From an uncultured Clostridia bacterium (GTDB taxonomy: Bacteria; Bacillota; Clostridia; Oscillospirales; Ruminococcaceae), in contig CAMVDP010000011.1 in the NCBI GenBank assembly GCA_947166275.1, positions 1-55,784 on the forward strand: DNA of 55,784 nt. Reading direction: 5' to 3'. The notes beneath the pieces were generated by a model. That model did not search any database. It was not told the origin of the DNA and saw only the letters and a program-made list of their open reading frames with translations. Below are positions 1 to 33,896 of this stretch, piece by piece; within the stretch, counting starts at the first letter, position 1, and each line of letters opens with the position of its first letter. A program made the position numbers and the translations under genes.

Positions 1-228
1 AACGCCGGAAACATCGATAACCACTATGATACCACTGATCTGACATACAAGACCGAGGTCAGCAATACTGAAAGTGCCGATGTTAAGAATGTTCGTAACG
101 AGCAGACAAATGTGAACGTTTCGGGCGGCGATACAACGAACATTTCGAATGTGTCGAATGTTGTAGCGAATGCCGGAAACATCGATAACCACTATGTTAC
201 CACTGATCTGACATACAAGACCGAGGTA
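1..228 (+). repeat. 168-bp in-frame tandem repeat
   Basis: Bases 1-60 and 169-228 are nearly identical (differences only at the third, about the 30th and the last position), giving a 168-bp period that keeps the reading frame. The array continues beyond the left edge, so the copy number is unknown. Confidence 0.85.
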
Positions 229-2001
229 GTTGATACTCCGGGCGAGTCACGGAATGAGACGGATGCCGCTGCAAATAAAACAATTGCAGAGCTTCAGAAA
301 GCCGGTGAGCTCAAAGAGATCGGACTGCTGGTCATGAATACGTTCATATCACGCGGTGCTGAATACATATCCGAGATCAGGAATAAACATATCCACAAGC
401 GCATTTCGCTCGTGCCGGTGATCGCGTCGGCGGATGAGAGCTATGCAAGCCGGCTTCTGAACAGCTCGCAGACAGCATTCGGAGTGATCTCCTACGCTGT
501 TGGGCTACTCACGGCAGAGCGAGTGCCTGACCCGCATGAACGCAGCATTTATGAAAGCGCGGTCACGCAGGTGTATCTTGAGAGACACGACCATACGACT
601 AACGATATAAAAAGCATGTTCGCGGCAATGAGCCCGGGCGAGAGAACGAAAGTCCTGACGCTCATAGTGGACCGGTTGTCCGGTGCTGAACATGAGCTGC
701 GCCCGACAGCAACGCAGACAGCGCGCAGAGGCAGTGAGCCCGGAAAGATCCCCGTTTCGGAGAGCGAGACGCGTCTGCTGAAGCTGCTTTCGGCGGACAA
801 ACAGGGCAGGATCGTGAAGCTTATACACGAAAGCGCTGCAGGAGATACGGTGTCGGCTCTGCTGAACAAGGTATACTACGGGGGCTCCGGAGCAGCCGGC
901 GGCGCTGCTGGCAAAGATACGGAAGGAACAGTGTCCGAGCGCGTTCGCAATGCGGTCTATATGCCGGAACAGCTGAAACACGCCGAGTTATCGCGGGAAA
1001 ACGCTTACAGCAGTTTTCTTATGCGGCTGATAGACCGGAACATAACAGTTCATACCGAAAACGAGTCATACTCGCGGAATATACTTGATATGCGGGAGCT
1101 TCGCGATAGCGCGCAGAACGTGGGCGCAATGGGTCCCCGTACTCATGGAGACAGCGTACAGTCCGCAGATGCCCGCCGCGGCAGCTCTCCGGAGCACGGA
1201 GCTGTGCGGCATGATACGTTAAGGACGCTGGTCGGGCGGACGGTCGCTTACGAACGGGCGCTGAAGACGCTTACCTCACGGACTGCTGCACCGGGCGCAG
1301 ATCGCGGTGATGCGGTGTACAACTACAGCTTCAACTCGGCGGTATCGGAATACGAGCTGCCGGTGACGATAATGAGAAGCGGTGCGGTTGAGGAAGGCTT
1401 AAGGACACTGCCCGGAAGCGTGCTTGAAAGAGTGATATTGCCGGGTGTGCGGTCGGGTATTTCCGTCGGACGCACATCAGCGGCAGACCCTGAAACGACA
1501 CAGCGCAGGCATCACATGACAGTGCGGCAGGATATACGCAGGCTTACTTTCGCGGAAGGCTCTGCGGCGAGTATGCCCGCAGTCAGGGAGGAGCCCGCGG
1601 CGGATACGATCCCGGGAATACCGGTGTTGAATTACCGTGAGCCCGGTCCGGCTGTGCAGCCTGCTTCACAGGTCCCCTCCAAAGCAGTGACGGAAGCTCC
1701 GCAGCCAAGCCGCGAGGAGCTTGTAAAGCAGTTCGGCAACCTTATCGAGGGCGCGGACGCGGGAATGATACCGTCGTTCGACGTCGGTACGCGCGGTGTG
1801 GGAGATGCTATGGCAGCTATCGAACAGACCGCAGAAAAGGTAGCCGTGAACAGCAGGCTTATTGATGAGATACGCGAGAAACAGCGGATTATAGAGCAGA
1901 CAACGCTCAAAGCGAGCGATATCGACGCGCTGTCGGAGCAGATGATAAGAAAGCTGCGGGATCGCATGAGACTTGACAGGTCGCGGTTCTCGGGACAGTG
2001 A
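1..2001 (+). CDS. CIS-cluster repeat protein, 5'-truncated by window
   Basis: The reading frame is open from base 1, so the gene starts outside the window; the ATG at 112 is internal. At least 666 residues are visible. The left end carries a 56-residue (168-bp) tandem repeat: the segment beginning NAGNIDNHY at base 1 recurs at base 169 with only three differences in about 60 bases. The repeats are rich in Asn, Ser, Thr and Val. The rest is charged and low in hydrophobicity, with no signal peptide or membrane segment in view, and the last 60 residues form an Arg/Lys/Glu-rich predicted helix. It lies 27 bp before the LysM baseplate gene. I do not recognise the family. A tape-measure-like, fibre or cargo role is possible from position alone. 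Confidence 0.7.
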   Translation, partial: NAGNIDNHYDTTDLTYKTEVSNTESADVKNVRNEQTNVNVSGGDTTNISNVSNVVANAGNIDNHYVTTDLTYKTEVVDTPGESRNETDAAANKTIAELQKAGELKEIGLLVMNTFISRGAEYISEIRNKHIHKRISLVPVIASADESYASRLLNSSQTAFGVISYAVGLLTAERVPDPHERSIYESAVTQVYLERHDHTTNDIKSMFAAMSPGERTKVLTLIVDRLSGAEHELRPTATQTARRGSEPGKIPVSESETRLLKLLSADKQGRIVKLIHESAAGDTVSALLNKVYYGGSGAAGGAAGKDTEGTVSERVRNAVYMPEQLKHAELSRENAYSSFLMRLIDRNITVHTENESYSRNILDMRELRDSAQNVGAMGPRTHGDSVQSADARRGSSPEHGAVRHDTLRTLVGRTVAYERALKTLTSRTAAPGADRGDAVYNYSFNSAVSEYELPVTIMRSGAVEEGLRTLPGSVLERVILPGVRSGISVGRTSAADPETTQRRHHMTVRQDIRRLTFAEGSAASMPAVREEPAADTIPGIPVLNYREPGPAVQPASQVPSKAVTEAPQPSREELVKQFGNLIEGADAGMIPSFDVGTRGVGDAMAAIEQTAEKVAVNSRLIDEIREKQRIIEQTTLKASDIDALSEQMIRKLRDRMRLDRSRFSGQ

Positions 2002-2028
2002 TGATACCGGACGGGAAGGAGAACGGAT

Positions 2029-2766
2029 ATGGGATTGGGCACAACACTTTTACAGGCTGCCATAAACATAGCGGAGAAGCTTTCGAGCGAGAAAGCGCTG
2101 ATAGTAAAAGTCAAGAACAAGAAGATCGCTGAAAAGATACCGGTGCAGTTCAATCCGTCTGAGTACAAGATCTCGGAACGCACAATGTACTCGGAGAAAA
2201 CGCGCAGAGAAAAAGACGAGCCGGTTGTGGATTTCAACGGAAAACCGCTCTCGACTCTGAGCGTTAAGCTGTACTTTGATTGTGACGAGATACCGACTAT
2301 GAGTTCTGCGACGCAGGGTGCCATAGACACGGTCATGGGCAACGAGTCCGATAAAAATATCACGAAGCTTATGGACAAGATCACCGCGCTCACGATCATT
2401 GACGGTGATTCCCACCAGCCGCCGGGAGCGATCTTCGTATGGGGCTCTCTGATGTTTGCGGGATATGTTGACAGTGTTTCCACTACATACACTATGTTTG
2501 ATAACAAGGGCAAACCGCTGCGCGCGGTCATGGATGTCACCATGAAGGGTTCCAACGGAGGTTCTTCCGAGAAGAAGAGTCCCCGTATGTCGCCGGACCG
2601 CACGAAAGCTCGTACCATGACGGAGGACAACAGCATCTGGAACATGGCGCTCAACGAGTACGGTGATGTCCGCGAATGGCGCAGGATAGCGGACGCGAAC
2701 GGGATAATGAATCCTCTCGACATACCGGTCGGGAAGGTGCTGAAGGTACCCGCGATAGAAAACTGA
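2029..2766 (+). CDS. LysM-containing CIS baseplate protein (Pvc7/gp53-like)
   Basis: This 245-aa protein is a baseplate component of contractile injection systems. The segment around residues 40-50 (PVQFNPSEYKISER) is the typical start of the CIS/phage LysM tail protein family, followed by the beta-rich domain. Residues about 200-245 form a LysM module (SIWNMALNEYGD ... GIMNPLDIPVGKVLKVP). In phage and PVC particles the homologue attaches the baseplate hub to the tube. A GGGAAGGAG-like ribosome binding site precedes the ATG. It is followed at 27 bp by the hub gene, the same order as pvc7-pvc8. Confidence 0.9.
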   Translation: MGLGTTLLQAAINIAEKLSSEKALIVKVKNKKIAEKIPVQFNPSEYKISERTMYSEKTRREKDEPVVDFNGKPLSTLSVKLYFDCDEIPTMSSATQGAIDTVMGNESDKNITKLMDKITALTIIDGDSHQPPGAIFVWGSLMFAGYVDSVSTTYTMFDNKGKPLRAVMDVTMKGSNGGSSEKKSPRMSPDRTKARTMTEDNSIWNMALNEYGDVREWRRIADANGIMNPLDIPVGKVLKVPAIEN

Positions 2767-2793
2767 TTAGCTCCGGGAGGTCGGTGAACGGAT

Positions 2794-3873
2794 ATGGCAA
2801 ACCTGATGACGGCTACCGCGAAGTTTACTTCTCTTGAAAACAAATACGGAAATTTCATGGTGCCTGCCTTAAAAATAAAGGCTAACGGCTCGGATCTTAT
2901 CTCGAAGAACGACCTCACGATCCCGCAGCTTTCGGTCACGCTTTCGCTTGAGAGCGCAGGCATGGCGGTGTTCAAGGTCGCGGACGCGTATGATGTCGAA
3001 AAGCACAGCTTTGACAAGAAAGTGAAGGGGCTGTTCAAGCTCGGCACTGTTATAGAGATCGAGCTCGGTTATCTCTCCGATACCACTGCGGTGTTCAAGG
3101 GATATGTAGCGGGGCTTGGCGCGGAGTTTGAGACTTCCCCCATGCTGGTGGTGAAGCTTATGGACGCACGGAAGCTGATGATGACCGGCGGTGTGCGTAA
3201 GCAGCTCTACGTTGACAAGAATTACTCCGATATTTTCAAGAAGGTCATGGGGCGGTACTCGAAGCTGTGCAGCATCGAGGCGGACGCTACATCGGACAAC
3301 CTGAAGGATCCCGTGTCGCAGAGCACGAACGATTACAACTTTGTACGCAACGAGCTTATCGGAAGCGGCAAGTCGGAAAGAGAATTTTTCATTCTTTACG
3401 ATAAAGCGTATTTCAGAAAGCCCTGCAAAAACAAAACCCCGATAATGACGGTGATGTTCGGCAGGGAGCTGATGCGGCTGAATACAATGGCGGATTATCT
3501 CGATACAGAGATCGAGGTCATCGGCTATGACCCGGTCAACAGCAAGAGCATTTCCTCGAAGCAGAAGGTGAAGACTTCGGAGAGCCAGGTCTCCGTGCTT
3601 ACGCCGGCGCAGAAGCAGTACTTCATTGACGCGGACGCAGACAACGAGGAAAAGGCAAAGATACGCGCGGGCGCGATAGCGGACAACATGAAGCTTAAAA
3701 GCTGCTTTGCCGAGGGCGAGCTGATAGGACTGCCGGAGATAGTTCCGGGGCGCTTCCTCAAGGTGGAGGATACGGAACAGATGGTCGATAAAAGCTACTA
3801 TCTGAACGAGGTCACGCACTATTACACCGAATCGAGCTTCCGGACTGTGTTCGAGGCTAAAGGCTGGACGTGA
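2794..3873 (+). CDS. gpD-like spike hub (VgrG N-terminal half)
   Basis: The 359-aa product resembles phage late control protein D and the gp27-like half of VgrG/Pvc8, the trimeric hub that joins the tube to the spike. Supporting features are the early segment with LTIPQLSVTLSLE, the beta-barrel segments, and the tail KSYYLNEVTHYYTESSFRT, which matches the end of the hub domain where ligand-like loops precede the OB fold. The spike domain is encoded by the next gene, 30 bp downstream, so the Pvc8/VgrG function is split over two genes. The ribosome binding site is GGGAGG with a spacing of about 8. Confidence 0.85.
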   Translation: MANLMTATAKFTSLENKYGNFMVPALKIKANGSDLISKNDLTIPQLSVTLSLESAGMAVFKVADAYDVEKHSFDKKVKGLFKLGTVIEIELGYLSDTTAVFKGYVAGLGAEFETSPMLVVKLMDARKLMMTGGVRKQLYVDKNYSDIFKKVMGRYSKLCSIEADATSDNLKDPVSQSTNDYNFVRNELIGSGKSEREFFILYDKAYFRKPCKNKTPIMTVMFGRELMRLNTMADYLDTEIEVIGYDPVNSKSISSKQKVKTSESQVSVLTPAQKQYFIDADADNEEKAKIRAGAIADNMKLKSCFAEGELIGLPEIVPGRFLKVEDTEQMVDKSYYLNEVTHYYTESSFRTVFEAKGWT

Positions 3874-3903: not shown

Positions 3904-4680
3904 ATGAGCCTGTTCGGAGAGATGACCGGATACAGCTCCGCGAATGACGCTTCGGGTGTTATAAGCGGTGTTGTGACCGGCACGGTAAAGGAAAACTATA
4001 ATAAGGACTTCCCGGGGAAAGTAAAAGTCGAGCTGTTTCTCGGGGAAAAGGGCCTCAATGTCACAGGCTGGATACCGGTGATGACTCCGTATGCGGGTAA
4101 AAAGTACGGGGAATACGCGCTGCCGGAGGTGGGCGACGAGGTGGTCGTGGCGTTCAAGATGGGCGACCGGAACTGCCCGATCGTTATCGGGAGCTTGTGG
4201 AGCGGCAAAAATCCGCAGCCGGATAAGGCTGTGACCGAGAAAAACATGGTGAAGAAGTTTGTCACCAAGGGCAAGAATGAGATCAGTATTGATGATACTG
4301 CAGATAAGGCGAAGATACAGATAAAGACCGCAAAAGGCAAGACCTTCCTGCTCGATGAGGAGAAGGACAGCATCACGCTACAGGATAAGGATAAGAAAAA
4401 CTGTATCACGATCGACTCAAAAAGCGGAGAGATAAAGATCAAAGCCGAAAAGAAAATAACGATCGACGCGGGAGGTGCCAAGGGCGTTTTCGACGGCACC
4501 GGCAAGAAGGTGGCTATATCCGGCGGTACCGTCGATCTCAAGGGCGACCAGACCTTCCATGCGAAGGGCACCTCAACGAAGATAGAGGGAACCAATGTTG
4601 AGATCAAGGCCAACGCTTCACTTAAGGAACAGTCAAGCGGTGTGACCGAGATCAAGGGCACTATGGTCAAGATCAATTAG
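3904..4680 (+). CDS. gpV/VgrG-like spike protein
   Basis: This 258-aa protein forms the membrane-piercing spike shaft. Residues about 20-100 are a gp5 OB-fold (GKVKVELFLGEKG, WIPVMTPYAGKKYGEYALPEVGDEVVVAF, CPIVIGSLW), the hallmark of VgrG, gpV and Pvc8. After it come repeating short beta strands rich in Lys, Gly, Thr and Ile (residues 120-258), as in the triple-stranded beta-helix of spike proteins. The tip would be capped by the DUF4280 protein at 18290. It follows the hub gene and precedes gp25. Confidence 0.9.
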   Translation: MSLFGEMTGYSSANDASGVISGVVTGTVKENYNKDFPGKVKVELFLGEKGLNVTGWIPVMTPYAGKKYGEYALPEVGDEVVVAFKMGDRNCPIVIGSLWSGKNPQPDKAVTEKNMVKKFVTKGKNEISIDDTADKAKIQIKTAKGKTFLLDEEKDSITLQDKDKKNCITIDSKSGEIKIKAEKKITIDAGGAKGVFDGTGKKVAISGGTVDLKGDQTFHAKGTSTKIEGTNVEIKANASLKEQSSGVTEIKGTMVKIN

Positions 4681-4703: not shown

Positions 4704-5120
4704 ATGTACAACAAGAGCTTTCTCGGTACGGGCTTCAAATTCCCCGTATGCGTTGACCCGAACACGGGCAAGGTGCGTACCTCCACGAACGAGGATGACA
4801 TCATGGAATCTGTGCGTATCATACTCGGCACCGCTCCGGGAGAGCGTCCTATGATGCCGGATTTCGGCTGCTCGATAAACTCGTTCGTGTTCAGCGGGCA
4901 GGACTATACGTCGCTGATGCTGATGAAGCATGAGGTAGAGAATGCGCTCGTAATGTGGGAGCCGCGTATCAAGGACATCGAGGCGAACGTTTCACCCGCG
5001 CCGGACGATGCGGGCAAGCTTGTGATAACCGTGAGCTTTGTGGTGCGCTCGACCAACAACCCGTTCAACCTTGTATATCCGTTCTACATAAACGAGGGTT
5101 ATGGTGATACCGAAAGATAA
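4704..5120 (+). CDS. gp25-like baseplate wedge protein
   Basis: This 138-aa protein is the GPW/gp25 family baseplate wedge, which nucleates sheath polymerisation in phage T4, T6SS (TssE) and PVCs (Pvc9). The family signature WEPRI (the conserved EPR of gp25/TssE) lies near residue 92, and the N-terminal segment (TNEDDIMESVRIILGTAPGE) is typical. Length is usual for the family. The ribosome binding site is AAAGGAGGAG. Confidence 0.93.
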   Translation: MYNKSFLGTGFKFPVCVDPNTGKVRTSTNEDDIMESVRIILGTAPGERPMMPDFGCSINSFVFSGQDYTSLMLMKHEVENALVMWEPRIKDIEANVSPAPDDAGKLVITVSFVVRSTNNPFNLVYPFYINEGYGDTER

Positions 5121-5152
5121 CATGACAATAACTGACCGAGGAGGTGAGAACA

Positions 5153-8116
5153 GTGGTCAAGGTCGATAACAGAAACAAGGAAGACATTGTCGCAGAAATA
5201 GCAGAGCTTGCAAAGAGCTATACTCCCGAATGGAGAATGGATCCCAAGGATCCTGATATCGGAACTGTTCTCGCGCTTGCTTATGCGGATATGCTGGCGG
5301 GTACGCTCAAAAAAGTGAACGGCACGCCGCTCAAGAACAAGATAGCTTTCTATAACATGGCTGACGCGTCGCTTCTGCCGGCATCGCCTGCGGAGGGATT
5401 CGTGAACTTCACGCTGTCGGCGGACGATGTGGGAAGCACTCCGATAGAGAAGGGCGCCGTCATGTCGTCATATACCGCGGACGGTGAGACGATGCACTTC
5501 GAGACATGTGATGACATACTCGTGTCTCCCGCACGGATAGAGAAAGTTTTCGTTGCCGATGACAGTGAGGACTTCATCGGTGAATACGAGCACTTCATGG
5601 AGGAGAAGACCGCGCTGTTCGGCTTGCCTGCCGCAAACCTGCAGAGCCATGTGATGCGGGCTTCGCACCCGTTCGCGTTCGATATCCGAAGCGAGGGCAG
5701 CATCACGATGAGGTTCCTGCGCAAGAGCGGCACTCTCGCCGGAAATGAGAGCATCAAAGCGCTCTCCGACCCGGATGCTGCGGAGATCGAATACTACGCG
5801 GGCGAGGAGAATGGTTTCGTGCGCTTTTCGGATGTGCATGAGAGCAGAGGCGATCTTGTGCTCGTAAAGGACGCAAAGCTTCCGCCTGTCGCAGCGGACG
5901 AGGAAGGCTTCAACATACGCGTGACCGTGAAGGACATGACCGCGTTCGAGAATTTCTCATTCTCACAGATCGAGGCTCTGCCTTCGGGAAAAGGCATAAT
6001 ACCTGACCTTGTCACCGACGGCAACGTTGAATATGATATCAGTGAGTTCTATCCGTTCGGCGAGCAGTTCCAGCTCTTCAACGAGGTGTACTTTGCAAGC
6101 AGCGAGGTGCTCGGAAAGCGCGGCGCGGAGATCACCATGAGCTTCGATATGAGCGTTGTTGAGGTGCCGATAGATGATCAGCCCGATGATGAGGGGATCA
6201 ATTATAAATGGGTCGCGAACAAGAAAGACTTCAAGGAAGCAAAAACTTATAAGATCGCGATAACCGGCGTTATATGGGAATACTTCAACGGTAACGGCTG
6301 GAGCAGGCTGTTCAGTGACGGCTCTTACTCCGACCTGTTCAATATCAAGCAGGGCGTTACAGCGAGCTTCAAGAGCATCACGTTCAAATGCCCCGAGGAT
6401 ATGACAGAGGCATTCGTCGGCGCACATACAGGCTGCTGTATTCGCGCAAGGCTGCTCAAAGCGGAGAACCTTTACAAGACCAGGGGCTGGTATCTCTCGC
6501 CCTTGATACGCAACATATCCTTTGAATATCACTATGAGGAATCGGGCTGCCGCATTTCCGACATAGTTTCATACAATAACATCGAAGAGCGCAGATATAC
6601 TCCCGCCGATGCCGCGGGATATGACGGCTTTGTGCCGTTCCGCTGTGCGGGCGCGGAAGACAGGACCGTGTATTTCGGTTTCTCTGCGCCGCCCGACAAC
6701 GGGCCGATGCGCATACTATGGGATATCGAGGAGGATCCGCGCTCCGCACGCCCGAAGCTGCTGTGGAAGTACCTCACTGCCGGCGGCTGGAAGCCCATGA
6801 ACATCGCAGATGAGACAGAGAGCTTCACGAAGTTCGGTCTTACCGTGTTTCTCGATAATCACGGGTTCGTGAAGCAGAGGTTATTCGGCGAGGAGCTTTA
6901 CTGGGTGGCAGTCACCGATATCGAGAACATGTACCGTATGAAACGGTGCGGGCTCCCGATAGTGAACGGGGTGTTCTTCAACTCCGTACGTGCGGTGAAT
7001 GTGGACAGCCACATTGAAGAATACTTCGCGATGAATGTGTATACCGAGAACGCGGTGTTTACGCTTTCTTCTCCGAATGTGCTCGATTTTGAGCTATATG
7101 TCAACGAGTTCACTTCGATAACCGAGAGTGAGGCAGATGAACTTGAAGCGCGGGGCAGACTTATCCGCGTGACCGGAAGCGGCGGTATGGATACCGAGAT
7201 CTGGGTGAAGTGGGACGAGGTAAGCACCTTCGCTATGCAGGATAACAGCTCCAGATGCTACATACTCGACCGCAGCAGCGGTAAGGTGACTTTCGGGAAC
7301 GGCAGAAAAGGCCGTATCCCTCCTGTGTCCGATACGGATAATATCAGAGTAACATACACTACCGGCGGCGGTGACCGCACAAATCTAGAGCCGGGCGGTA
7401 TTGCAGGGCTTGAGCGTTCCTATGGCTTCGTGTCTGGCGTGGACAATGCCAAGCGATTCTACGGCGGCTGTGATGCGGAAACGGTGTTTGACGCTATGCG
7501 CCGCAACGCGATAATGATCCGAACGCAGGGCAAGGCTGTGACGGCGCGTGACCTTGAGAGCCTTACGTTCAACGCGTCGCGCAACATACGGAAGCTGCGG
7601 TGCGTGTGCGGGAGAAACATCACCGGCGCAAGGGAGCGCGGAGCTGTCACGCTTGTCGTGCTGAAGAAGGAGTATTCCGAATTCAGCAGGATAAGAAACG
7701 ATATCATGGAATATCTTTCGGGAAGGCTCCCGGGTAGCATCGTTTCCAATGAGAGCCTGTACATTACCGAGCCGACCTCGGTGAAGATAAACGTGAGGGC
7801 GGAGATAAAGACCAAGGAACTGAACGGTATCTTTGAGCTCAAAAAGAGTGTCGAGCAGTGTCTCGCGGATTATTTCGCGTCCTTCTCCGGAGCGGACGGC
7901 GACAACGTCTGGAGACTCGGCATGATACCGAATGAGCAGCAGATTCGAAGCGCTCTGCTGAGACTCAAGAATGTCATTTACATAAGAAACCTGTATATTA
8001 CGATGTACGTTTCCGGCTCTGACGGTCTCAAGGAGATCGACAGCGACACAATAGGACAGTACAGCTATATCCTGCCGGAAAACGGCGAGCACGAGATCAC
8101 CGTAACTGTCGAATAA
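5153..8116 (+). CDS. Baseplate J-like protein 1 (Pvc11-like)
   Basis: This protein of about 987 aa belongs to the baseplate J/gp6-like family that forms the ring of the CIS baseplate. The N-terminal part (EWRMDPKDPDIGTVLALAYADML) and the C-terminal part (TARDLESLTFNASRNIRKLRCV ... EYLSGRLPGS) fit that family. The GTG at 5144 lies inside the GAGGAGGTG Shine-Dalgarno sequence; the GTG at 5153, six bases after it, is the better start. It is translated in series with the next J-like gene. Confidence 0.88.
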   Translation: MVKVDNRNKEDIVAEIAELAKSYTPEWRMDPKDPDIGTVLALAYADMLAGTLKKVNGTPLKNKIAFYNMADASLLPASPAEGFVNFTLSADDVGSTPIEKGAVMSSYTADGETMHFETCDDILVSPARIEKVFVADDSEDFIGEYEHFMEEKTALFGLPAANLQSHVMRASHPFAFDIRSEGSITMRFLRKSGTLAGNESIKALSDPDAAEIEYYAGEENGFVRFSDVHESRGDLVLVKDAKLPPVAADEEGFNIRVTVKDMTAFENFSFSQIEALPSGKGIIPDLVTDGNVEYDISEFYPFGEQFQLFNEVYFASSEVLGKRGAEITMSFDMSVVEVPIDDQPDDEGINYKWVANKKDFKEAKTYKIAITGVIWEYFNGNGWSRLFSDGSYSDLFNIKQGVTASFKSITFKCPEDMTEAFVGAHTGCCIRARLLKAENLYKTRGWYLSPLIRNISFEYHYEESGCRISDIVSYNNIEERRYTPADAAGYDGFVPFRCAGAEDRTVYFGFSAPPDNGPMRILWDIEEDPRSARPKLLWKYLTAGGWKPMNIADETESFTKFGLTVFLDNHGFVKQRLFGEELYWVAVTDIENMYRMKRCGLPIVNGVFFNSVRAVNVDSHIEEYFAMNVYTENAVFTLSSPNVLDFELYVNEFTSITESEADELEARGRLIRVTGSGGMDTEIWVKWDEVSTFAMQDNSSRCYILDRSSGKVTFGNGRKGRIPPVSDTDNIRVTYTTGGGDRTNLEPGGIAGLERSYGFVSGVDNAKRFYGGCDAETVFDAMRRNAIMIRTQGKAVTARDLESLTFNASRNIRKLRCVCGRNITGARERGAVTLVVLKKEYSEFSRIRNDIMEYLSGRLPGSIVSNESLYITEPTSVKINVRAEIKTKELNGIFELKKSVEQCLADYFASFSGADGDNVWRLGMIPNEQQIRSALLRLKNVIYIRNLYITMYVSGSDGLKEIDSDTIGQYSYILPENGEHEITVTVE

Positions 8117-8151
8117 TACGGTGTTACCGCGGGTGTGAGGAGGTGAAACGG

Positions 8152-21252: not shown

Positions 21253-21262
21253 CGGAGGAGAT

Positions 21263-23485: not shown

Positions 23486-23501
23486 ACGGAGGAGTGCTGT
23501 A

Positions 23502-26209: not shown

Positions 26210-28339
26210 ATGCTTTCCAATGAACACAGGACCGATAACATGAACGGCGTTCCCGGCGGCTTTGTCCGCAGGGAACGTCCGGATATATGCGCTCCTCTCG
26301 GAGTTATAGCCTGCTGTGCCGGGTACGGAAAGAGCACGTATCTTGCGCAGCTCGCGGAAGATACCCCGGGGAGCGTGCTGATATCTCTCGCAGAGTATGA
26401 TGACTGCCCGGAGCGTATCGCCGCGCTGTTTTGCGGCGCGGAGCAGGGAGCTTCCGATTATGGGAATGTCTGCCTGTTCATAGAAAAAATGTCCGCTCAC
26501 TGCGGACTTGTTCTTGTTGACAATGCCGATGTTGTGACGGAGAAAACAGCGTCGGCGTTTTTGACGTTGCTGTGTGAAGCTGCCGCAGGCGGAAAGATAC
26601 GGCTGCTTCTGGCGGGGCGGGAGATCCCCGGATATGTGCTGAAATACCTGATGAACGGCGAAGCGGCACTTTACGGGATAGATGAGATGCGCTTCACACG
26701 CGCCGAAACAGAAGTATATCTGGATCTTCTCGGAAGACCGTACACCGACACTTACGCGAATATGCTTTACACTTACACCTGTGGCTGGTGCGCGGGAGTA
26801 GCGGCTGTGGCAAAGGCTGCCGCTGACGAAGATGACATCGCGGGATGCGTCGGACGCACTCTGCTCGAACGGTATATAAAATGCGAGATACTGTCGGGAC
26901 TGGACGAGGGGCTTTCCGAATACCTCGTGCTCTCGTCGTTCATCAGCCCGCATGACGCAGAATTTTCGTCAGCGGTGTTCCGCGTTAGCGACGGTCCGGA
27001 GCGTGCGGACAGGCTCGTCACGCGTGGAGTGCTCTCGCGCGGAGAGGATGGAGCCATACTCCTTCCGGGCGTTATGAGAGATGTGCTTGCAGCGACTCTG
27101 TCTCCGGAGCGTAAACGCAGTCTTACCGATCGTGCGTCAGCGTATTTCATCAAGGAAAAGCGCTTTGCGGAGGCTATCAGGTTGTTCGATGTGAGCGGCA
27201 ACGCCGCTGCTGCAGAGCGAATACTGAAGAACTACGGTGAGCGGTTCCTTGAGAATTATGAATTTGAGCTGGTCGGCTACTGCGGCGATATCATCGCAAA
27301 AAACGGCGGCAGCAAGGACCCGGAGGTGCTCGGGATCCTTGCGCAGTATTACTACTACTGCGGTGACACCGTGCGCATGGAAGCGGCGTTCAACATGGCG
27401 GACAGTATGTTCGGTCGCGAGAACCGTTACAGCGTTTGCAGAAAACTGTACAACGGACTGATGCGATATGAGGGCAACCGTGAGCTGTATACCGCGAATG
27501 TGAAGAGCGCCTGCGAGTACCTCGAAGCAAACTCGCTGCCGCTGCCGTTCCTGCATCAGAAGGAGCTCGAAACACTCGCGGAAATAAACCGTGAGAGTGA
27601 TGACAGCGGAAAGCTGCACGTATACCGTTTCGGCATGCTGCGTTTCACTGTGGGTGACACCGAGATACAGTGCAAGAGCCGTAAGAGCCTTGAGCTGATC
27701 GCGTACATGCTTGAGCGAGGCGGAAAGCCTGTCCCGAGAGAGGATCTGCTGAATATGCTCTGGAGCGGCGATATCCCGGTGAACGCGGTCGCGATGCTGC
27801 ACAATGTTATTTACGGGCTGCGACGGGAGCTTACACCGTACGGACTTGAAAATGTGCTTATCTACAAAAACAAGTGCTATATGCTGGATATGTCGATGAT
27901 AGCGGAGGATGACAGGGATATCCTTGAGGTGTGCGATGCCGCGGACAACTGTGACAAGAAGAAGCTCGCGGCGCATGAGAACGTGCTCGAAACATACTGG
28001 GGACGATATCTCGGAGTCAGTGACAGCCGTGGTTCACAGGAGCGCAAGGAGTATTACGACCGCTGCTTCGTGAATGCTTCGCTGATGGCGGCGGAGCTGT
28101 GCAGGGAGCGCGGGGACCGTGAGCGGGAGCTGATGTTCCTCAACAACGCGTCGGAGACCGATCCGTTCTCGGAGCAGATAGTGTGCAGCTACATGATGTG
28201 CTGCTTCGCTCTCGGCAAGCCGGATAAAGCGAAGAAAAAATACGACAGCTACGCTAAGCTTATCGACGAGGAGCTTGGCATTACGCCGAGCAAGTGGCTC
28301 AAAAACGAGTTCCTGTCCGGCTTTGCGAATGATACTTGA
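26210..28339 (+). CDS. STAND NTPase - winged helix - BTAD transcription regulator
   Basis: The 709-aa protein combines an N-terminal MalT-like STAND ATPase (Walker A AGYGKST at about 36-42; Walker B-like LVLVDNAD at about 100; RLLLAGR), a helical-repeat middle, an OmpR-type winged helix (about 474-570, FGMLRFTVGDTEI ... VPREDLLNMLW ... VAMLHNVIYGLRREL) and a C-terminal BTAD domain (about 580-705). This is the layout of SARP/AfsR-like activators, with the DNA-binding part C-terminal to the ATPase. It starts three bases after the upstream stop. It is the only obvious transcription factor of the CIS and a candidate to bind the repeats before the sheath gene. Confidence 0.85.
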   Translation: MLSNEHRTDNMNGVPGGFVRRERPDICAPLGVIACCAGYGKSTYLAQLAEDTPGSVLISLAEYDDCPERIAALFCGAEQGASDYGNVCLFIEKMSAHCGLVLVDNADVVTEKTASAFLTLLCEAAAGGKIRLLLAGREIPGYVLKYLMNGEAALYGIDEMRFTRAETEVYLDLLGRPYTDTYANMLYTYTCGWCAGVAAVAKAAADEDDIAGCVGRTLLERYIKCEILSGLDEGLSEYLVLSSFISPHDAEFSSAVFRVSDGPERADRLVTRGVLSRGEDGAILLPGVMRDVLAATLSPERKRSLTDRASAYFIKEKRFAEAIRLFDVSGNAAAAERILKNYGERFLENYEFELVGYCGDIIAKNGGSKDPEVLGILAQYYYYCGDTVRMEAAFNMADSMFGRENRYSVCRKLYNGLMRYEGNRELYTANVKSACEYLEANSLPLPFLHQKELETLAEINRESDDSGKLHVYRFGMLRFTVGDTEIQCKSRKSLELIAYMLERGGKPVPREDLLNMLWSGDIPVNAVAMLHNVIYGLRRELTPYGLENVLIYKNKCYMLDMSMIAEDDRDILEVCDAADNCDKKKLAAHENVLETYWGRYLGVSDSRGSQERKEYYDRCFVNASLMAAELCRERGDRERELMFLNNASETDPFSEQIVCSYMMCCFALGKPDKAKKKYDSYAKLIDEELGITPSKWLKNEFLSGFANDT

Positions 28340-30267
28340 AGGCGGTGAAGCAGAACTTGTACGAAAAATACGCACCGGTGTTCTCGGCAATTGGTGACTA
28401 TCTCGAAGCTTTCAGGGAGCATGGATATGACAAGTCCGCTGTCGACAGGATAGCCGGACTGCTGCAGAAGACCGGCGGAACGCCGCTTGGCGAAATACTG
28501 AACGGACAGAGCGATGCGGTGAAATATACCGTTGCGCTCGGCACGCTCGTGAACTTCAGCAGGCGGGAAGCCGAAACACTAACGTCCGTGTTCGGCGTGC
28601 GCGCGGGAAGTATAACTCCCGAAGTCGTATGCGAGCTGTTCTTCGGAGTGGCCGATATCTTTCCGGTGAGCGGGAGTCTGTCGGAGTACTCGCTGCCGGA
28701 AAGGCTGTTCGACGGCGTGAGACCCGCATACAACGCAGTCATGACGCTGAAGCCGTTCGCAGCGCATTTCATCGCTGACGGAGATATCGATGATGACGCA
28801 TTCGCTCCGGAGCCGGACTGTGAGATGAGGTACATCCCGCTTTCGGAGAACATGCGCGCCGAGAGAGAGATCGCTGCTGCGGTCAGGTCGCGCGATACCG
28901 ACACACGACGCGTCATAGCTGTGTGCGGCGAAGAAGGCGCAGGCAGGAGAACTGCCGCTGTGAGGGCTCTCGAAGCTGTGGGTGCGGCGTGTGTTGAGAT
29001 ACGCGGAGAGATAAGATATGACAGCGGACGCATGAAGGAGCTCGCGACGAAGCTTATGCTGCTGGACGCTGTGCCGGCAGTGGTACAGGGCACTGACACG
29101 GAAGGCTTTGCAAAGCTTGTGAGCGGGCTTTCGGAGCAGCTTGGCACTGTCATCGCGGTGTGCGGTGAGATCGTACCAGATCTCGGAGCCGGCACGGAGA
29201 TCGTCACCGTGCGTATCGGTGATCCGACCATGGAAGAACAGTACCGTATCTGGGAGAGTGAGCTGTCAGCGTACAATGTTGACAACAGCGTTGACATTTC
29301 CGAGCTTGCGGGCGAGTTCAGCTTCACCGCAGGCGGTATCAGGAAGGCGCTTCGGTTCGCGGAGATGCTTTCGGAAGGTGATACGCTGATCATGGCGGAT
29401 ATCAAAGCCGGCTGCTGCAGATCGGTCAACTCCGATATGGGAAGCAAGGCTGTGAAGATAAACTGTGTGTTCGGCTGGGACGACATAGTGCTGCCGGAGC
29501 ACAGCAAGCGGCTTATGCGTACCGCCTGCGACCAGGTGCGTTATCGACACAAAGTGTACGATACATGGGGCTTCGCGGGCAAGATAGCCTATGGCAGGAG
29601 CGTGTCGATGATATTCACCGGCCCTCCCGGCACCGGCAAGACCATGGCTGCGCAGATAATCGCGGCGGAGCTCGGGCTTGACATATACCGCATCAGTCTT
29701 GCAAACGTTGTAAGCAAGTACATCGGTGAGACCGAGAAAAACCTCGATGATATCTTTGAAAAGGCGAAGAAAAGCAAGGTCGTGCTGTTCTTCGATGAAG
29801 CGGATGTGCTGTTTTCAAAGCGTACAGAGGTCAAGGATTCAAACGACAAATACAGCAACATGGAGTCGGCATTCCTGCTGCAGAAAATAGAGGAGTACAA
29901 CGGCATCGTTATACTTGCCACCAACCTCGTACAGAACTTTGATGAGGCGTTCAAGCGCCGTATGAAGCTTATGATAGACTTCCCGTTCCCGGACGCGGAC
30001 AGGCGGCGCGAGATGTGGAAGCGAGCGCTCCCGGAAAAGCTGCCGCTTGAGAACATCGACTTCGATTACCTGGTGAGCAGCTTCGAGCTGTCTGGCAGCA
30101 ACATCAAGAATATCGCTCTGCACAGTGCGTTCCTCGCTGCGGCGGACGGCAGCAGGGCTGTAAGCATGAAGCATGTGATCGCGGCTCTGAAAAATGAGTA
30201 TGCCAAGAGCGGTAAGGCTTTCACGAAAGCCGAGGCGGGTGAGTATTTCTACTACATCGACGGGTGA
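28336..30267 (+). CDS. CIS AAA+ ATPase 2, paralogue of the one at 21263
   Basis: The 643-aa protein has the same plan as the first ATPase: an N-terminal degenerate P-loop with Arg-Arg (GEEGAGRRT, about 198-206) and an intact C-terminal AAA+ domain (GPPGTGKT about 429, LFFDEAD about 485, ILATNLVQNFDEAFKRR). The regions NCVFGWDDIVLPE and KYIGETEKN match NAVFTWDDLVVSD and KYIGETQKN of the first. TTG 28336 overlaps the regulator's stop; TTG 28357 after AAGGCGGTG is an alternative start. The ATPase at 21263 and this one may form a heteromer or act at different steps. Confidence 0.9.
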   Translation: MKAVKQNLYEKYAPVFSAIGDYLEAFREHGYDKSAVDRIAGLLQKTGGTPLGEILNGQSDAVKYTVALGTLVNFSRREAETLTSVFGVRAGSITPEVVCELFFGVADIFPVSGSLSEYSLPERLFDGVRPAYNAVMTLKPFAAHFIADGDIDDDAFAPEPDCEMRYIPLSENMRAEREIAAAVRSRDTDTRRVIAVCGEEGAGRRTAAVRALEAVGAACVEIRGEIRYDSGRMKELATKLMLLDAVPAVVQGTDTEGFAKLVSGLSEQLGTVIAVCGEIVPDLGAGTEIVTVRIGDPTMEEQYRIWESELSAYNVDNSVDISELAGEFSFTAGGIRKALRFAEMLSEGDTLIMADIKAGCCRSVNSDMGSKAVKINCVFGWDDIVLPEHSKRLMRTACDQVRYRHKVYDTWGFAGKIAYGRSVSMIFTGPPGTGKTMAAQIIAAELGLDIYRISLANVVSKYIGETEKNLDDIFEKAKKSKVVLFFDEADVLFSKRTEVKDSNDKYSNMESAFLLQKIEEYNGIVILATNLVQNFDEAFKRRMKLMIDFPFPDADRRREMWKRALPEKLPLENIDFDYLVSSFELSGSNIKNIALHSAFLAAADGSRAVSMKHVIAALKNEYAKSGKAFTKAEAGEYFYYIDG

Positions 30268-30275
30268 GGTGCAAT

Positions 30276-31097
30276 ATGGCTGCATTCGATGATTATGATA
30301 ATTACGACAGAAAACTTGCTCTGTCAGAGGGTGTCGAGCATGTCCGGGAAAACGAGCTCAAGGACAAGAAAAAAGTCGAGGGATATGAACCGAACCCGCA
30401 GGATGAGAAATACTACGAGGTCATGGGGATAAAGAATTCCTTCGACAACGTGTCTGTCGGCTCGGACAAGTACGGGCAGATGCTTATCTCGGTGAATACG
30501 CTCAAGGAGCCGGGCAGCCCGACACTCGACAGTGACAGGAAGATCATGAAGAGCCAGCGGCGTAAGAAAAAGTTCGGTGCGTTCGGCGACTTCTACACCA
30601 ACCTGTTCTCGGACAGGCACGGTGCGTTCGCGTTCCGGGCAGACCGCAACATTTCGGATATCCGCGTCGTGAAGGAATTTGAACGAATGGCGAAGCAGCG
30701 CGTCGACCGCGAGCAGCTCGATGCCATGCCGATGCTGCGGCTGGAGGATGACAGGGCGGAGCTCGAAAAGCTGCGCGGCATGAGCGGTTCGCAGAATGAG
30801 AATTTTGAGGAGCGCCGTACGCTTGAACACAGAGTCATGAAGGAGACCGAGTATCGTGATCGGTTCATGGCGAGACTGCGTAAGGCGCGGAGGAAGACTT
30901 ACGACAAGCGTGAAGATGAAGAACTTGAGAACGATATCTTCCGCACAATGCTGTCCGCGGAGGGCGATACGGATGAAGACGGAGATGACGATACAGACGA
31001 CATCCTCGGTGATACAGATGACACCACAGATGACATTCTTGACGGTATTGATGACGAAATAGTTGACAATACAGGTGAAAGTGACGAAAAATTATAA
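30276..31097 (+). CDS. Charged CIS protein with Asp-rich tail, unknown
   Basis: The 273-aa protein has no recognised domain. It is hydrophilic, with Arg/Lys-rich middle and a strongly acidic Asp/Thr repeat tail (residues about 230-265, DDDTDDILGDTDDTTDDIL). There is no signal peptide or membrane segment. ATG 30276, seven bases after GGTGAGGTG, is preferred over GTG 30264, which lies in the ribosome binding site. The stop codon overlaps the first TTATAAT repeat of the sheath promoter region. It is last in the long upstream transcription unit. Confidence 0.7.
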   Translation: MAAFDDYDNYDRKLALSEGVEHVRENELKDKKKVEGYEPNPQDEKYYEVMGIKNSFDNVSVGSDKYGQMLISVNTLKEPGSPTLDSDRKIMKSQRRKKKFGAFGDFYTNLFSDRHGAFAFRADRNISDIRVVKEFERMAKQRVDREQLDAMPMLRLEDDRAELEKLRGMSGSQNENFEERRTLEHRVMKETEYRDRFMARLRKARRKTYDKREDEELENDIFRTMLSAEGDTDEDGDDDTDDILGDTDDTTDDILDGIDDEIVDNTGESDEKL

Positions 31098-31140: not shown

Positions 31141-31152
31141 AGTAATCCAACC

Positions 31153-31170: not shown

Positions 31171-31229
31171 GCATCGATTTTTGAAAGGGGGAACGGTTTT
31201 TATCCGCAGGACGGGTAAAAGCGAACTTT

Positions 31230-32933
31230 ATGGCAGAATATTTATCTCCCGGTGTTTATGTCGAGGAGTTTGAGTCGGGCGGAAAGCCCATGGAAGGCGT
31301 CGGAACAAGTACCGCCGGCTTCGTGGGACTTGCTGAAAAGGGCCCGGTAGGCGGAGTTCCGCAGCTTGTTACGAACTTTGCGGATTTCAGAAGAAAATAC
31401 GGCGGATTCCTTTCCGAGAACGAGTTCGGTGAGTACCGCTTCCTCGCTTATGCGGTAGAGCACTTCTTCATCAATGGCGGTACACGCGCTTTCATCTCGA
31501 GAGTTGCTCCGTCCAGCGCAAAGTGCGCGACTGCAAAAGTCGGCGACCTTGAATTTACAGCAAAGAACCCCGGTCTCTGGGGCGACAGCATCGGCATCAA
31601 GATCACTCCCTCGTCCAAGGCAAAGACCCAGGCGTTCGAGTCTCTCGGTGACAAGAAGTACAGAGTAAAGAGCGGTGCAGGCTTCGCACCCGGCGATATC
31701 GTTGCGTTCAGCGACGGCGACACCGTTGAATACAATAAGGTCGAGAAGAACCAGGATAACGTCATCACTTTCGTGAACAGCTTCTCCGGCGATATCACAG
31801 ATAACAATCTCCTTCCCACAAAGGTCCTCACCACATGTGAGATCACAATGGAAGTAAGATATGACGATACTACCGAGACCTATGAGAACCTCTCGTTCAA
31901 CATCGAGTCTCCCAACTACATCGTCAAGAAGACAGCAAAGTCCGAGCTCGTAAGCATCGAGTACAAGGGCTCAAATGAGATAGGCTACCCCTTCGGCACC
32001 CTCTGCACAGAGGACGAGGCTGTGGTTACAGCTGAATTCAAGGGCGGCAGCAACGGTTCCGCATCCGACCTCTCCGCCGGCGATTTCATCGGTGAGAACA
32101 AGGGCGCAGGCAACAGGACCGGTATCCAGTCCTTCCTCGATAACGATGTGGTTTCCATCATGGCTGTTCCGGGTATCACAGACCCGAACGTACAGCTCAC
32201 ACTCGTTGCTCATTGTGAGAACCTCGCAAGCAGATTTGCTGTGCTCGATATCCCGAGAACAGCAAAGAAGGTAGACGAGATAGCTGCTCACAGAGATATC
32301 TTCTCTTCGAGCTACGCAGCTCTCTATCATCCGTGGCTCACAGTGTTCGATCCGCTTGATAAGAAGAACATAGCTATCCCGCCGTCAGGCTCTATCATGG
32401 GTATCTACGCGAGAAGCGACAATACAAGAGGCGTTCATAAGGCTCCTGCAAACGAAGTAGTAAGAGCTTGCGTAGGTCTCGATACACAGTTCAACAAGGG
32501 CGAGCAGGATATCCTCAACCCGAAGGGCGTTAACCTTATCCGTGCATTCCCGGGTCAGGGTATCAGAGTATGGGGCGCAAGAACCGTTTCGGGCGATCCG
32601 AGCTGGAAGTATGTCAACGTTCGTCGTCTGTTCATCTTCCTCGAGGAGACTATAAAGGCAAATACCAACTGGGCTGTATTCGAGCCTAACGATGAAGCGC
32701 TCTGGACAAGAGTTCACAGAACTATCAGCGTATTCCTCAATGGAATGTGGAGAAACGGCTCCCTTGCCGGAACATCGGCTGATGAAGCATTCTTCGTTAA
32801 TATCGGCAGAAGCACCATGAGCCAGGACGATATCGATAACGGTCGTCTCGTATGCGTGATAGGTGTAGCACCCGTTAAGCCTGCCGAATTTGTGATCTTC
32901 AGGATCACTCAGAAAACCGGCGATGCTGAATAA
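31230..32933 (+). CDS. Contractile tail sheath protein
   Basis: The 567-aa protein is the sheath. The N-terminus (YLSPGVYVEEFESGGKPMEGVGTSTAGFVGLAEKGP pattern; PGVYVEE at residues 7-13) and the C-terminal sheath domain (VRRLFIFLEETI, FEPNDEALWTRV, GRLVCVIGVAPVKPAEFVIF) are diagnostic. Only one sheath gene is present here, while PVCs carry three. Codon use is biased to CTC, AAG and ATC compared with the upstream CIS genes, as expected for an abundant protein. No good ribosome binding site lies within 15 bases of the ATG; GAAAGGGGG is 34 bases upstream. Confidence 0.96.
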   Translation: MAEYLSPGVYVEEFESGGKPMEGVGTSTAGFVGLAEKGPVGGVPQLVTNFADFRRKYGGFLSENEFGEYRFLAYAVEHFFINGGTRAFISRVAPSSAKCATAKVGDLEFTAKNPGLWGDSIGIKITPSSKAKTQAFESLGDKKYRVKSGAGFAPGDIVAFSDGDTVEYNKVEKNQDNVITFVNSFSGDITDNNLLPTKVLTTCEITMEVRYDDTTETYENLSFNIESPNYIVKKTAKSELVSIEYKGSNEIGYPFGTLCTEDEAVVTAEFKGGSNGSASDLSAGDFIGENKGAGNRTGIQSFLDNDVVSIMAVPGITDPNVQLTLVAHCENLASRFAVLDIPRTAKKVDEIAAHRDIFSSSYAALYHPWLTVFDPLDKKNIAIPPSGSIMGIYARSDNTRGVHKAPANEVVRACVGLDTQFNKGEQDILNPKGVNLIRAFPGQGIRVWGARTVSGDPSWKYVNVRRLFIFLEETIKANTNWAVFEPNDEALWTRVHRTISVFLNGMWRNGSLAGTSADEAFFVNIGRSTMSQDDIDNGRLVCVIGVAPVKPAEFVIFRITQKTGDAE

Positions 32934-32954
32934 TTGATTGGGGGTTAGAATAAT

Positions 32955-33377
32955 ATGATTTATCCACATACACGGTTTAGGTACAAGGTCGAGATCGACG
33001 GTATCGAGGCTGGAGGTTTCTCCGAAGCTACCGGATTCGACGCTTCCATAGATGTTGTCGAGTACAGAGAGGGCGATATGGAAACTACGCCTTCGAAGAT
33101 CCCGGGCATCAAGAGATACGGTAATATCACATTGAGACAGGGTCTCGTTGACTCCACCGCTATATACGACTGGATGATCACAGGCGTGAACGGCGCGGTA
33201 GACAGAAAGACGATCACCATTACTCTTCTCGATGAAGAGGAAGCTCCCGCAGCTTCGTGGCAGGTCATCAACGCTTGGCCTATGAGATACACTGCTCCCG
33301 ATTTCAATGCGACGGCATCTGAAGTTGCTATCGAATCCATCGAGATCGCACATGAGGGTATGACAAGAGTTTCGTAA
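32955..33377 (+). CDS. CIS inner tube protein (gp19-like)
   Basis: The 140-aa protein forms the inner tube of stacked hexamers through which cargo passes. It shows the family start RFRYKVEIDGIEAGGFSEATGFDASID and the conserved end segment ATASEVAIESIEIAHEGM. Length is standard for Pvc1/Pvc5-type tube proteins. The gene follows the sheath by 21 bases with GGGGG-type ribosome binding site and is followed by a hairpin at 33392. Confidence 0.95.
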   Translation: MIYPHTRFRYKVEIDGIEAGGFSEATGFDASIDVVEYREGDMETTPSKIPGIKRYGNITLRQGLVDSTAIYDWMITGVNGAVDRKTITITLLDEEEAPAASWQVINAWPMRYTAPDFNATASEVAIESIEIAHEGMTRVS

Positions 33378-33391
33378 ACTATATGCTGAGC

Positions 33392-33421
33392 AATAAGACC
33401 GTTCGATCGAGCGGTCTTATT
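33392..33421 (+). terminator. Intercistronic hairpin after the tube gene
   Basis: AATAAGACCG (33392-33401) pairs with CGGTCTTATT (33412-33421); the stem can extend to about 13 bp around a GATC loop. No T-run follows, so it is more likely a partial terminator or an mRNA 3'-end stabiliser that separates the level of sheath/tube from the next gene. Confidence 0.6.
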
Positions 33422-33464
33422 GTGTAAAACACCCCTTGATTATTATGGAAAAGGAGTAACAGAT

Positions 33465-33896
33465 ATGTCGAAGAAAACAAAGAGATCCGAAGCGCCCGGT
33501 GAAGAGATCGTAATAGAAGACGCTGCGGCAGAGACTCCCGAGGAAAAAGCTGAAGAGGCTACCGTTGAAGCTGTTGTTGAAGAGACACCCGCTGAAGCTG
33601 CTGCCGAGGAGAATATCGCCGTATCCGAGGAACCTGCGAATATAAACGGCGGAGAAGAAGTAAGTGCTCAGGCACCTGCTGCAGCTCCCGCTGATCCCGA
33701 TGCGAAGGAGGGCACAGTGAGCAGACCTGTGAACTTCAGGACCGGTCCTTCGTTCAACAACGCGGTCATCGCAGCTCTCAAGCCCGGAAGCAAGCTGGCG
33801 CTTGACGGTACTGTCGAGGGCGACAAGGGCACGTGGTACAAGTGTGTGTTTGACGGACGTACAGGTTATGTAAAGGCATCAGGTGTGATCGTCTGA
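33465..33896 (+). CDS. SH3b-domain protein with acidic Ala/Glu/Pro-rich arm
   Basis: The 143-aa protein has a disordered N-terminal arm rich in Ala, Glu and Pro (residues 8-80) and a C-terminal bacterial SH3 domain (about 85-143: RPVNFRTGPSFNNAVIAALKPG, GTWYKCVFDGRTGYVKASGV). SH3b domains often bind peptidoglycan or peptides. No signal peptide is present, so it is cytoplasmic unless released with the CIS. ATG 33465 follows AAAAGGAG. As last gene of the sheath-tube unit it may be a cell-wall-binding or capping component; this is inference. Confidence 0.8.
   Translation: MSKKTKRSEAPGEEIVIEDAAAETPEEKAEEATVEAVVEETPAEAAAEENIAVSEEPANINGGEEVSAQAPAAAPADPDAKEGTVSRPVNFRTGPSFNNAVIAALKPGSKLALDGTVEGDKGTWYKCVFDGRTGYVKASGVIV

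Follow-up and report, generated by a model that had tools for sequence, protein, structure and literature searches.

The window, the whole stretch of 55,784 nucleotides that was analysed, is the start of contig C11 in a 1.88 Mb assembly of 49 contigs from an uncultured Clostridia bacterium. Bases 1-33896 hold a run of genes on one strand, in which 26 open reading frames (ORFs) were scanned and which encodes a contractile injection system (CIS). Sheath, tube, hub/spike, gp25, J wedges, cap and AAA+ all lie in this one cluster, and the CIS core belongs to a known kind. An earlier reading of the DNA letters, here called the original prediction, had described a nearly complete CIS gene set, and profile matches across the run bear out its parts list. 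It had also pointed to kinase-like, cyclase-like and PP2C-like proteins lacking their catalytic motifs, and these pseudo-enzymes, together with a MORN protein and a Cis13-family protein, are the subject of this report. The values below are Pfam, NCBIfam or PHROG profile matches, and "under cut-off" denotes a match below the curated threshold of the family.

2029-2766, + strand: Cis7/Pvc7-type protein with a weak LysM match (PF19266, 2.7e-30)
2794-3873, + strand: hub, VgrG/gp27-like (NF033848, 1e-8, under cut-off; also by position)
3904-4680, + strand: spike, Phage_base_V (PF04717, 4.7e-20)
4704-5120, + strand: gp25-like baseplate protein, Cis9 (PF04965, 1e-21)
5144-8116, + strand: baseplate J-like wedge 1 (TIGR02243, 3.9e-37, and PF04865, 4.2e-4, both under cut-off)
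8143-10203, + strand: baseplate J-like wedge 2 (PF04865, 9.1e-9; phrog_6, 8.4e-19)
10253-11413, + strand: short Cis12-family/gpI wedge protein (PF09684, 5.3e-8; NF053768, 7.2e-46, profile positions 431-572 of 715, under cut-off)
11410-13119, + strand: Cis13-family protein ("orf570") with a weak Ig-like C-terminal end (NF053767, 4.3e-25, residues 8-154, under cut-off)
13166-14017, + strand: pseudokinase with one C-terminal transmembrane (TM) segment and a short tail with a conserved IG[T][VL] (profiles, models, hydropathy)
14027-16885, + strand: MORN protein with an N-terminal TM segment (PF02493, 9.3e-38)
16899-17498, + strand: cap/terminator, Pvc16_N (PF14065, 2.9e-23)
18290-18676, + strand: PAAR-like DUF4280 spike tip (PF14107, 6.7e-36)
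18700-19506, + strand: pseudo class III cyclase with C-terminal TPR-like helices, soluble form (TPR_2, 0.033; profiles, models)
19531-21252, + strand: pseudo-PP2C (SpoIIE) domain in a membrane protein that also has Cache-like and HAMP-like parts (PF07228, 5.8e-23; HAMP and sCache under cut-off)
21200-23485, + strand: WHD-AAA+ ATPase (PF22977, 7.1e-23; PF00004, 9.6e-30)
26210-28339, + strand: SARP/BTAD-type regulator (PF03704, 1.5e-7)
31230-32933, + strand: sheath (PF04984, 5.1e-21; PF17482, 3.2e-17)
32955-33377, + strand: inner tube (PF06841, 2.4e-42)

In the 26 ORFs, with the window opening at the contig start, Pfam matched no capsid, portal or terminase family. Neither TssJLM nor TssK was matched among them, which sets the cluster apart from the canonical type VI secretion systems (T6SS, types i-iii).

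Cis13-family protein, pseudokinase and MORN protein

Relatives of the cluster were gathered through both its sheath and its Cis13-family protein. Within the same family, 15 of 197 genomes, counting that of the window, have a close sheath (E<=1e-10). The Cis13-family query, run against 84,980 species genomes, matched 545 stretches, of which 478 were confirmed; from these, 80 loci were fetched using the Cis13 alignment only (L numbers denote loci, G numbers genomes). At least 900 bases lie downstream in 76 of the 80 loci, and at least 9 kb in 59. Most of the 80 bear clostridial titles (Ruminiclostridium, Ruminococcus, Lachnospiraceae, Acetatifactor and Flavonifractor among them), while two are titled Muribaculaceae/Bacteroidales and a few merely "bacterium".

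The N-terminal part of orf570, about 150 residues, matches the CIS13 family, as do all 13 aligned members. Hydropathy gives no TM-like segment in the window's protein, and across the 80 loci it gives one borderline hydrophobic stretch in nine, at scattered positions, so that no consistent TM segment exists. This differs from the thylakoid CIS (tCIS), in which Cis13 carries a C-terminal TM segment. An identity as the Cis19 crown was also considered: the best PDB profile match is All3314/Cis19 at 0.0016, with nothing found from the single sequence. The NCBIfam CIS13 match far exceeds it, and orf570 is therefore called Cis13; the two families may share an N-terminal domain. Separately, genome G138 encodes a Cis13-family protein of 1193 residues (L052, 4764-8345, - strand) in a cluster without a detected pseudokinase, pseudo-cyclase or MORN gene, and this long form is possibly an alternative anchor.

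The pseudokinase gene follows the Cis13 gene in 76/76 loci with enough sequence downstream, with a gap of at most 150 bases in 75, by a profile trained on 58 of those same pseudokinases; the window's protein alone as query finds a match in 68 of the 80 loci (E<=1e-5). Every one of the 76 proteins has a TM-like segment after residue 150 (hydropathy), and 72 carry the tail motif IG[x][VLEM]; in a 59-row alignment (A4; the window and 58 of 69 references) no residues other than the Ile and Gly of this motif are invariant. Because positive residues precede the TM segment, the kinase domain is predicted to lie inside and the tail outside. From single sequences Pfam recognised neither the kinase-like nor the cyclase-like protein of the window, and profile searches and structure models were therefore used; these support a kinase fold for the soluble part, in agreement with the original prediction, as they do the cyclase-like fold; the PP2C-like fold is borne out by Pfam (PF07228). 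Pkinase is touched by two of the 59 members (Pfam, best 0.039). The HRD and DFG Asp are present in 0/59 at alignment columns 126 and 142, in a register that rests on the NI motif and on strand prediction, without superposition on solved kinases. Asp stands at the neighbouring columns 143, 124 and 128 in 4, 11 and 19 of the 59, and Lys at a possible beta-3 position in 30.

A phage origin of the pseudokinase found no match in 50,697 phage records. A defence-system scan (PADLOC) returned weak matches to PD-T4-6 (7e-4) and PycC (1.6e-4) only, which were read as generic kinase and cyclase similarity, and the link to defence was set aside.

The gene after the pseudokinase in the fetched loci is usually the MORN protein, and 79 of 82 MORN members have an N-terminal TM segment (hydropathy). 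By the positive-residue rule used for the pseudokinase, the MORN repeats would lie outside. In L095 and L098 a single continuous protein runs from pseudokinase through TM segment to MORN, and the IG tail is gone; pseudokinase and MORN therefore would form one transmembrane unit, and the missing tail suggests that it normally couples the two.

Pseudo-cyclase, pseudo-PP2C and selection

Profiles and models give the pseudo-cyclase a class III cyclase fold, although Guanylate_cyc is touched by only one of 32 members (Pfam, 0.0013; alignment A5, the window and 31 of 61 references, shorter forms only). Both metal Asp are kept in 0/82 cyclase-like sequences, the first in three and the second in four; the 82 include a few duplicates between sets, and the C37 paralogue serves as reference. 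The missing catalytic motifs of the original prediction were thus confirmed for kinase and cyclase alike, and its suggestion of a nucleotide sensor found no support.

The gene is present in 55 of the 59 loci with at least 9 kb downstream. Among cultured carriers, Anaeromicropila populeti (L099), Bacilliculturomica massiliensis (L086) and Flavonifractor sp. An92 (L112) have it together with pseudokinase and MORN, whereas in Cuneatibacter sp. NSJ-177 (L121) pseudokinase and MORN were seen. Of 66 pseudo-cyclases from the fetched loci, 48 have TM-like segments; 12 among all 66 are at least 750 residues long, every one with four or five such segments, and in the family sample the protein is about 870-960 residues long in 11 of the 13 clusters carrying one. 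The long form that was scanned (L129, the G018 protein) has a HAMP domain, and its ectodomains were unrecognised; nothing beyond resemblance speaks for a propeller/Cache reading of such ectodomains. The window's branch has a soluble pseudo-cyclase, and there the membrane Cache/HAMP-like part lies on the neighbouring pseudo-PP2C (15 loci with both). Two further loci encode proteins of 1032 and 1015 residues (L083, 18246-21344; L086, 18675-21722) downstream of the pseudo-cyclase, with NHL-like and sCache parts joined to an MFS transporter. It seems that the sensor half has been shuffled while the degenerate cyclase-TPR half was retained.

The window's genome holds a paralogue with canonical class III cyclase motifs and a similar TM layout (G000:C37, locus L143, 11262-14207, 981 residues), near the end of a 14.6 kb contig on which no CIS genes were recognised. 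It displays what the pseudo-cyclase has lost, and a protein of the C37 type is likely the kind of ancestor from which the CIS pseudo-cyclase receptors came, judging by motifs and layout.

The PP2C-like protein was compared in an alignment that joined the window's protein and a control to 21 of 28 locus hits, with L101, L103, L108, L109 (minus strand), L093, L107 and L136 omitted. What we take to be the four SpoIIE/PP2C motif Asp are all kept in 0/22 PP2C-like proteins (the window and 21 loci, two of them cut short) and all present in the control, a SpoIIE at window 42764-44770; the protein of L106 keeps three. The loss is graded over relatives, and the residues replacing the motif Asp are conserved within the window's branch. 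The ratio of nonsynonymous to synonymous substitution rates (dN/dS) is 0.035-0.157 over the three pseudo-enzymes, computed for the window together with four relatives, with PP2C represented by roughly the final 45% of its codons; these ratios are qualitative only, because dS is saturated.

These data bear on whether the pseudo-enzymes merely came along with a signalling operon and are now decaying, idle for the CIS. Intact SpoIIE genes nearby, in the window and in G018, and the graded loss in the PP2C-like gene would fit such decay. A dN/dS well under 1, even with saturated dS, replacement residues held constant in the window's branch and a largely fixed gene order argue the other way, and the idea, already disfavoured, is very improbable.

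Distribution, known systems and membrane docking

Cis13-family protein, pseudokinase, pseudo-cyclase and MORN protein all occur in 13 of the 15 sheath-selected clusters, which upholds the predicted association of the kinase-like and cyclase-like genes with the CIS. In a sample of 245 genomes of the order, the CIS marker PF19266 occurs in 12; the pseudokinase (E<=1e-6) is found in 10 genomes and cyclase-profile matches reaching the TPR end in 10, all within these 12. Locus reading adds a pseudo-cyclase in G272. G252 has a CIS without a visible module, an absence that is not firm as the contig ends about 2 kb past the Cis13-like gene. In a phylum sample of 299 genomes the marker occurs in nine and the pseudokinase (E<=1e-10) in four, all within the nine; G614 and G525 show none of the three pseudo-enzymes in the stretches read, and G595 is an 8.4 kb contig. 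Outside CIS genomes the order sample gave pseudokinase matches in 10/245, weak and short (1.2e-4 to 8.5e-4), and cyclase-profile matches without the TPR end in 11/245, mostly at positions of about 20-167 (others 108-167, 14-194, 21-128), which by their extent appear to be ordinary cyclases; the phylum sample gave pseudokinase matches near 1e-5 in 2/299. The C37 paralogue completes what was found outside CIS. The profiles were built from CIS loci, yet free homologues elsewhere should have shown up.

The original prediction asked whether the three pseudo-enzyme genes always co-occur with the sheath gene. They do not: outside the window's branch the PP2C-like gene turns up in only a few loci, while the kinase-like and cyclase-like genes occur across the clade. 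The prediction had named homologous loci lacking the three as counting against it, and CIS with none of them exist in the phylum (G614, G525). In the sheath tree the clostridial clusters, including G138, G157 and G575, form one clade (100/99, 18 rows). Beside it stands a group of Haloferax/Paenibacillus type (99/96), where no module was detected, with a joining fork of 87/85. The tree was built without G061, G031 and G314, and several long-branch rows have an unsure placement. The simplest history would have the module gained once, around the base of the clade, with partial losses and a narrower presence of the pseudo-PP2C.

Module-bearing CIS also occur at L032-L033, L028, L038-L039, L040-L041 and L036-L037 (G087, G102, G160, G068, G174), in genomes of only 0.7-1.0 Mb that are 88-97% complete, a large investment for reduced genomes. 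These clusters encode two extra proteins, of 695-698 and 898-1039 residues, between MORN and cap; the pair from G102 had no Pfam match.

Membrane linkage of a CIS is already known from tCIS, CisA, T6SSiv and archaeal systems. In the tCIS of Anabaena, according to the main text of PMC8894136, the Cis13 N-terminus binds the baseplate and the C-terminal TM segment anchors the particle, 9 of 14 particles being free without it. The clostridial cluster shares Cis12-family and Cis13-family proteins with that system, and the membrane anchoring shown there is proposed here. The Anabaena Cis13 bears its own TM segment, whereas the clostridial one lacks it and is followed by two separate TM proteins, pseudokinase and MORN; the same main text makes no mention of a kinase, cyclase or phosphatase. 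Because Cis13 is without a TM segment and a bitopic protein is encoded at that place, the pseudokinase is proposed as the adaptor.

On balance, and with gene order and predicted proteins as the basis, we lean slightly towards the view that this clostridial CIS docks on the cytoplasmic membrane of the cell that makes it, where it would be held or triggered through the pseudo-enzyme module. The Cis13 protein would cap the baseplate and bind the cytosolic domain of the pseudokinase, the membrane adaptor of the baseplate, which through its TM segment and outside IG[T][VL] tail would form the anchor jointly with the MORN ectodomain. As the gate, the membrane pseudo-cyclase would sense an outside cue; in the window this role would fall to the Cache/HAMP-like pseudo-PP2C with the free pseudo-cyclase-TPR protein. 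A conformational change, and not a second messenger, would pass to the anchor or baseplate and permit docking or firing. Anchoring through pseudokinase and MORN is the better supported part and is probable. The original prediction had left control of assembly or firing open between the two; that the pseudo-enzymes would gate firing, rather than assembly or expression, is possible but slightly doubtful. The whole picture, a widespread and undescribed class of CIS on the cytoplasmic membrane of gut and rumen Clostridia whose allosteric gate would be a receptor complex composed of dead enzymes throughout, with a pseudokinase/MORN baseplate clamp and a pseudo-cyclase trigger (plus a pseudo-PP2C in one branch), is offered tentatively and is rather doubtful as a whole.

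The adaptor's position invites comparison with Streptomyces. A bitopic protein just downstream of baseplate genes is the arrangement of CisA, and the pseudokinase, bitopic by hydropathy and encoded after the Cis12-family and Cis13-family genes, shares its place and predicted topology. By analogy the cluster could be a cytoplasmic CIS for programmed death, its membrane module recruiting particles under stress that would fire at the cell's own membrane; tCIS firing has been seen only upon cell lysis or ghost-cell formation (main text of PMC8894136). The fold differs, however, as the adaptor here is a kinase fold with MORN and pseudo-cyclase partners, and the conserved CisA domain is likened, in PMC12237407, to periplasmic substrate-binding domains; no CisA search was made. 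This explanation is rather unlikely; it is itself a form of membrane docking, set apart chiefly by what firing would bring about.

A further alternative is a released extracellular CIS (eCIS). Particles would be cytosolic and freed by lysis, and the membrane pseudo-enzymes would do no more than regulate expression or lysis, with the SARP regulator as one conceivable route. The CIS core is indeed of eCIS type, and BTAD is among the shell domains listed for eCIS in PMC8213781. The 26 ORFs contain no lysis family over cut-off, with only a weak Cwp6_N match (0.061), and no annotated receptor-binding tail fibre, with only the Cis13-family protein and its weak Ig-like end; a pure regulator, moreover, would need neither adjacency to Cis13 in 76/76 loci nor fusion to MORN. 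Release is accordingly quite improbable.

The nearest functional parallel lies elsewhere. The threonine phosphorylation pathway of T6SS (PpkA/PppA/Fha) depends on a kinase and a phosphatase that are both active, and there too folds of the kinase and PP2C types accompany a contractile machine. Here the catalytic residues are missing by alignment, and the Pfam scan of the 26 ORFs found no FHA match. The Paenibacillus-type CIS of Bacillota (G614, G525, L168) share the Cis13-family gene and CIS core, but pseudokinase, pseudo-cyclase and MORN were undetected in the stretches read; Cis12 has 711 and 727 residues in G614 and G525 against 386 in the window. Among haloarchaea, PMC11566945 describes a membrane-bound CIS in Halogeometricum with a proposed anchor of six predicted TM helices, and finds the nearest kin of haloarchaeal Cis11 in Bacillota. 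Among the matches listed (20 of 121 plasmid records with a match), identity is highest for the Haloferax larsenii sheath, 53.9% over residues 280-566, and module components were not detected in its region as read.

For membrane docking we count the adjacency of Cis13 and pseudokinase, the L095/L098 fusions, the phyletic link, catalytic loss with low dN/dS, the C37 paralogue, the lack of any lysis or capsid family over cut-off in the 26 ORFs, and the sheath tree together with the membrane-bound CIS of a haloarchaeon. The membrane link of the original prediction thus gains in evidence, with a Cis13 family assignment, a TM pseudokinase in 76/76 loci and two pseudokinase-MORN fusions, while docking itself is still predicted from sequence. 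Several points weigh against it. All TM calls are by hydropathy, the dN/dS ratios are only qualitative, and the window's Cis13 match covers the N-terminal part alone and falls under the family cut-off. Within the same sheath clade, G138 has only the Cis13 protein, G157 only Cis13 and MORN, and G575 a pseudo-cyclase and MORN without pseudokinase; G314, absent from the tree, likewise has pseudo-cyclase and MORN and no pseudokinase between its Cis13 and pseudo-cyclase genes. No pseudo-cyclase was seen within about 10 kb in L070, L100, L121 and L128, and in L115 and L135 the pseudokinase tail is missing without a MORN fusion. The membrane-bound haloarchaeal CIS described in PMC11566945 is that of Halogeometricum, whereas the tree row is Haloferax larsenii, whose CIS is not known to be membrane-bound.

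Outside the Gram-negative T6SS it is an open question what keeps a CIS at the membrane of its producer and sets it off from there, and this tightly linked gene cluster is a candidate answer for monoderm gut and rumen bacteria. If docking is right, an extracellular signal would lead directly to mechanical firing, without second messenger or phosphorylation, and pseudo-enzymes would have been co-opted as mechanical sensors of a nanomachine; contacts between pseudokinase and Cis13, and between IG tail and MORN, are predicted. Clostridial CIS as such are known, since an eCIS survey names a Ruminiclostridium toxin (PMC8213781), and a survey of human gut metagenomes found CIS predominantly from Bacteroidota (PMC12210884). 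In the open-licence literature, preprints being outside its scope, no description of a pseudo-enzyme module with a CIS was found.

Other genes of the run and its surroundings

The remaining ORFs of the run are as follows.

1-2001, + strand: 3' part of a large protein, open at the contig start; its relative in G113 has 2018 residues; no family match
17504-18274, + strand: carboxypeptidase-regulatory-like (Ig-type) protein, conserved in the operon (PF13620, 5.7e-5, under cut-off)
23439-24005, + strand: YbjN-like protein a, weak (PF10722, 0.0056, under cut-off)
24009-24512, + strand: YbjN-like protein b, weak (PF10722, 0.0028, under cut-off)
24530-26206, + strand: protein of 558 residues; no family match
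28336-30267, + strand: second AAA+ ATPase (PF00004, 5.4e-30)
30264-31097, + strand: protein of 277 residues; no family match
33420-33896, + strand: SH3_3 protein at the operon end (PF08239, 2.7e-8)

The cut first ORF contains protein repeats (GNIDNHY...TDLTYKTEV) that were spotted by eye. The protein of 558 residues might be a cargo candidate, which is a guess only.

Just beyond the run, window 33968-35062 (- strand) encodes an ABC transporter ATPase with a C-terminal stretch resembling HATPase_c_2 (Pfam 3.9e-4, under cut-off); in G018 a transporter-like protein with a similar tail, judged by eye, and an intact SpoIIE gene lie near the CIS. Another signalling-type neighbour is a COR-domain protein annotated between CIS genes on a Pseudanabaena plasmid (L171, 18983-21580). 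Further along the window, four adjacent ORFs at 49311-52248 (- strand) look by eye like fragments of one protein with substrate-binding-domain, hybrid histidine kinase and receiver parts, probably a broken gene.

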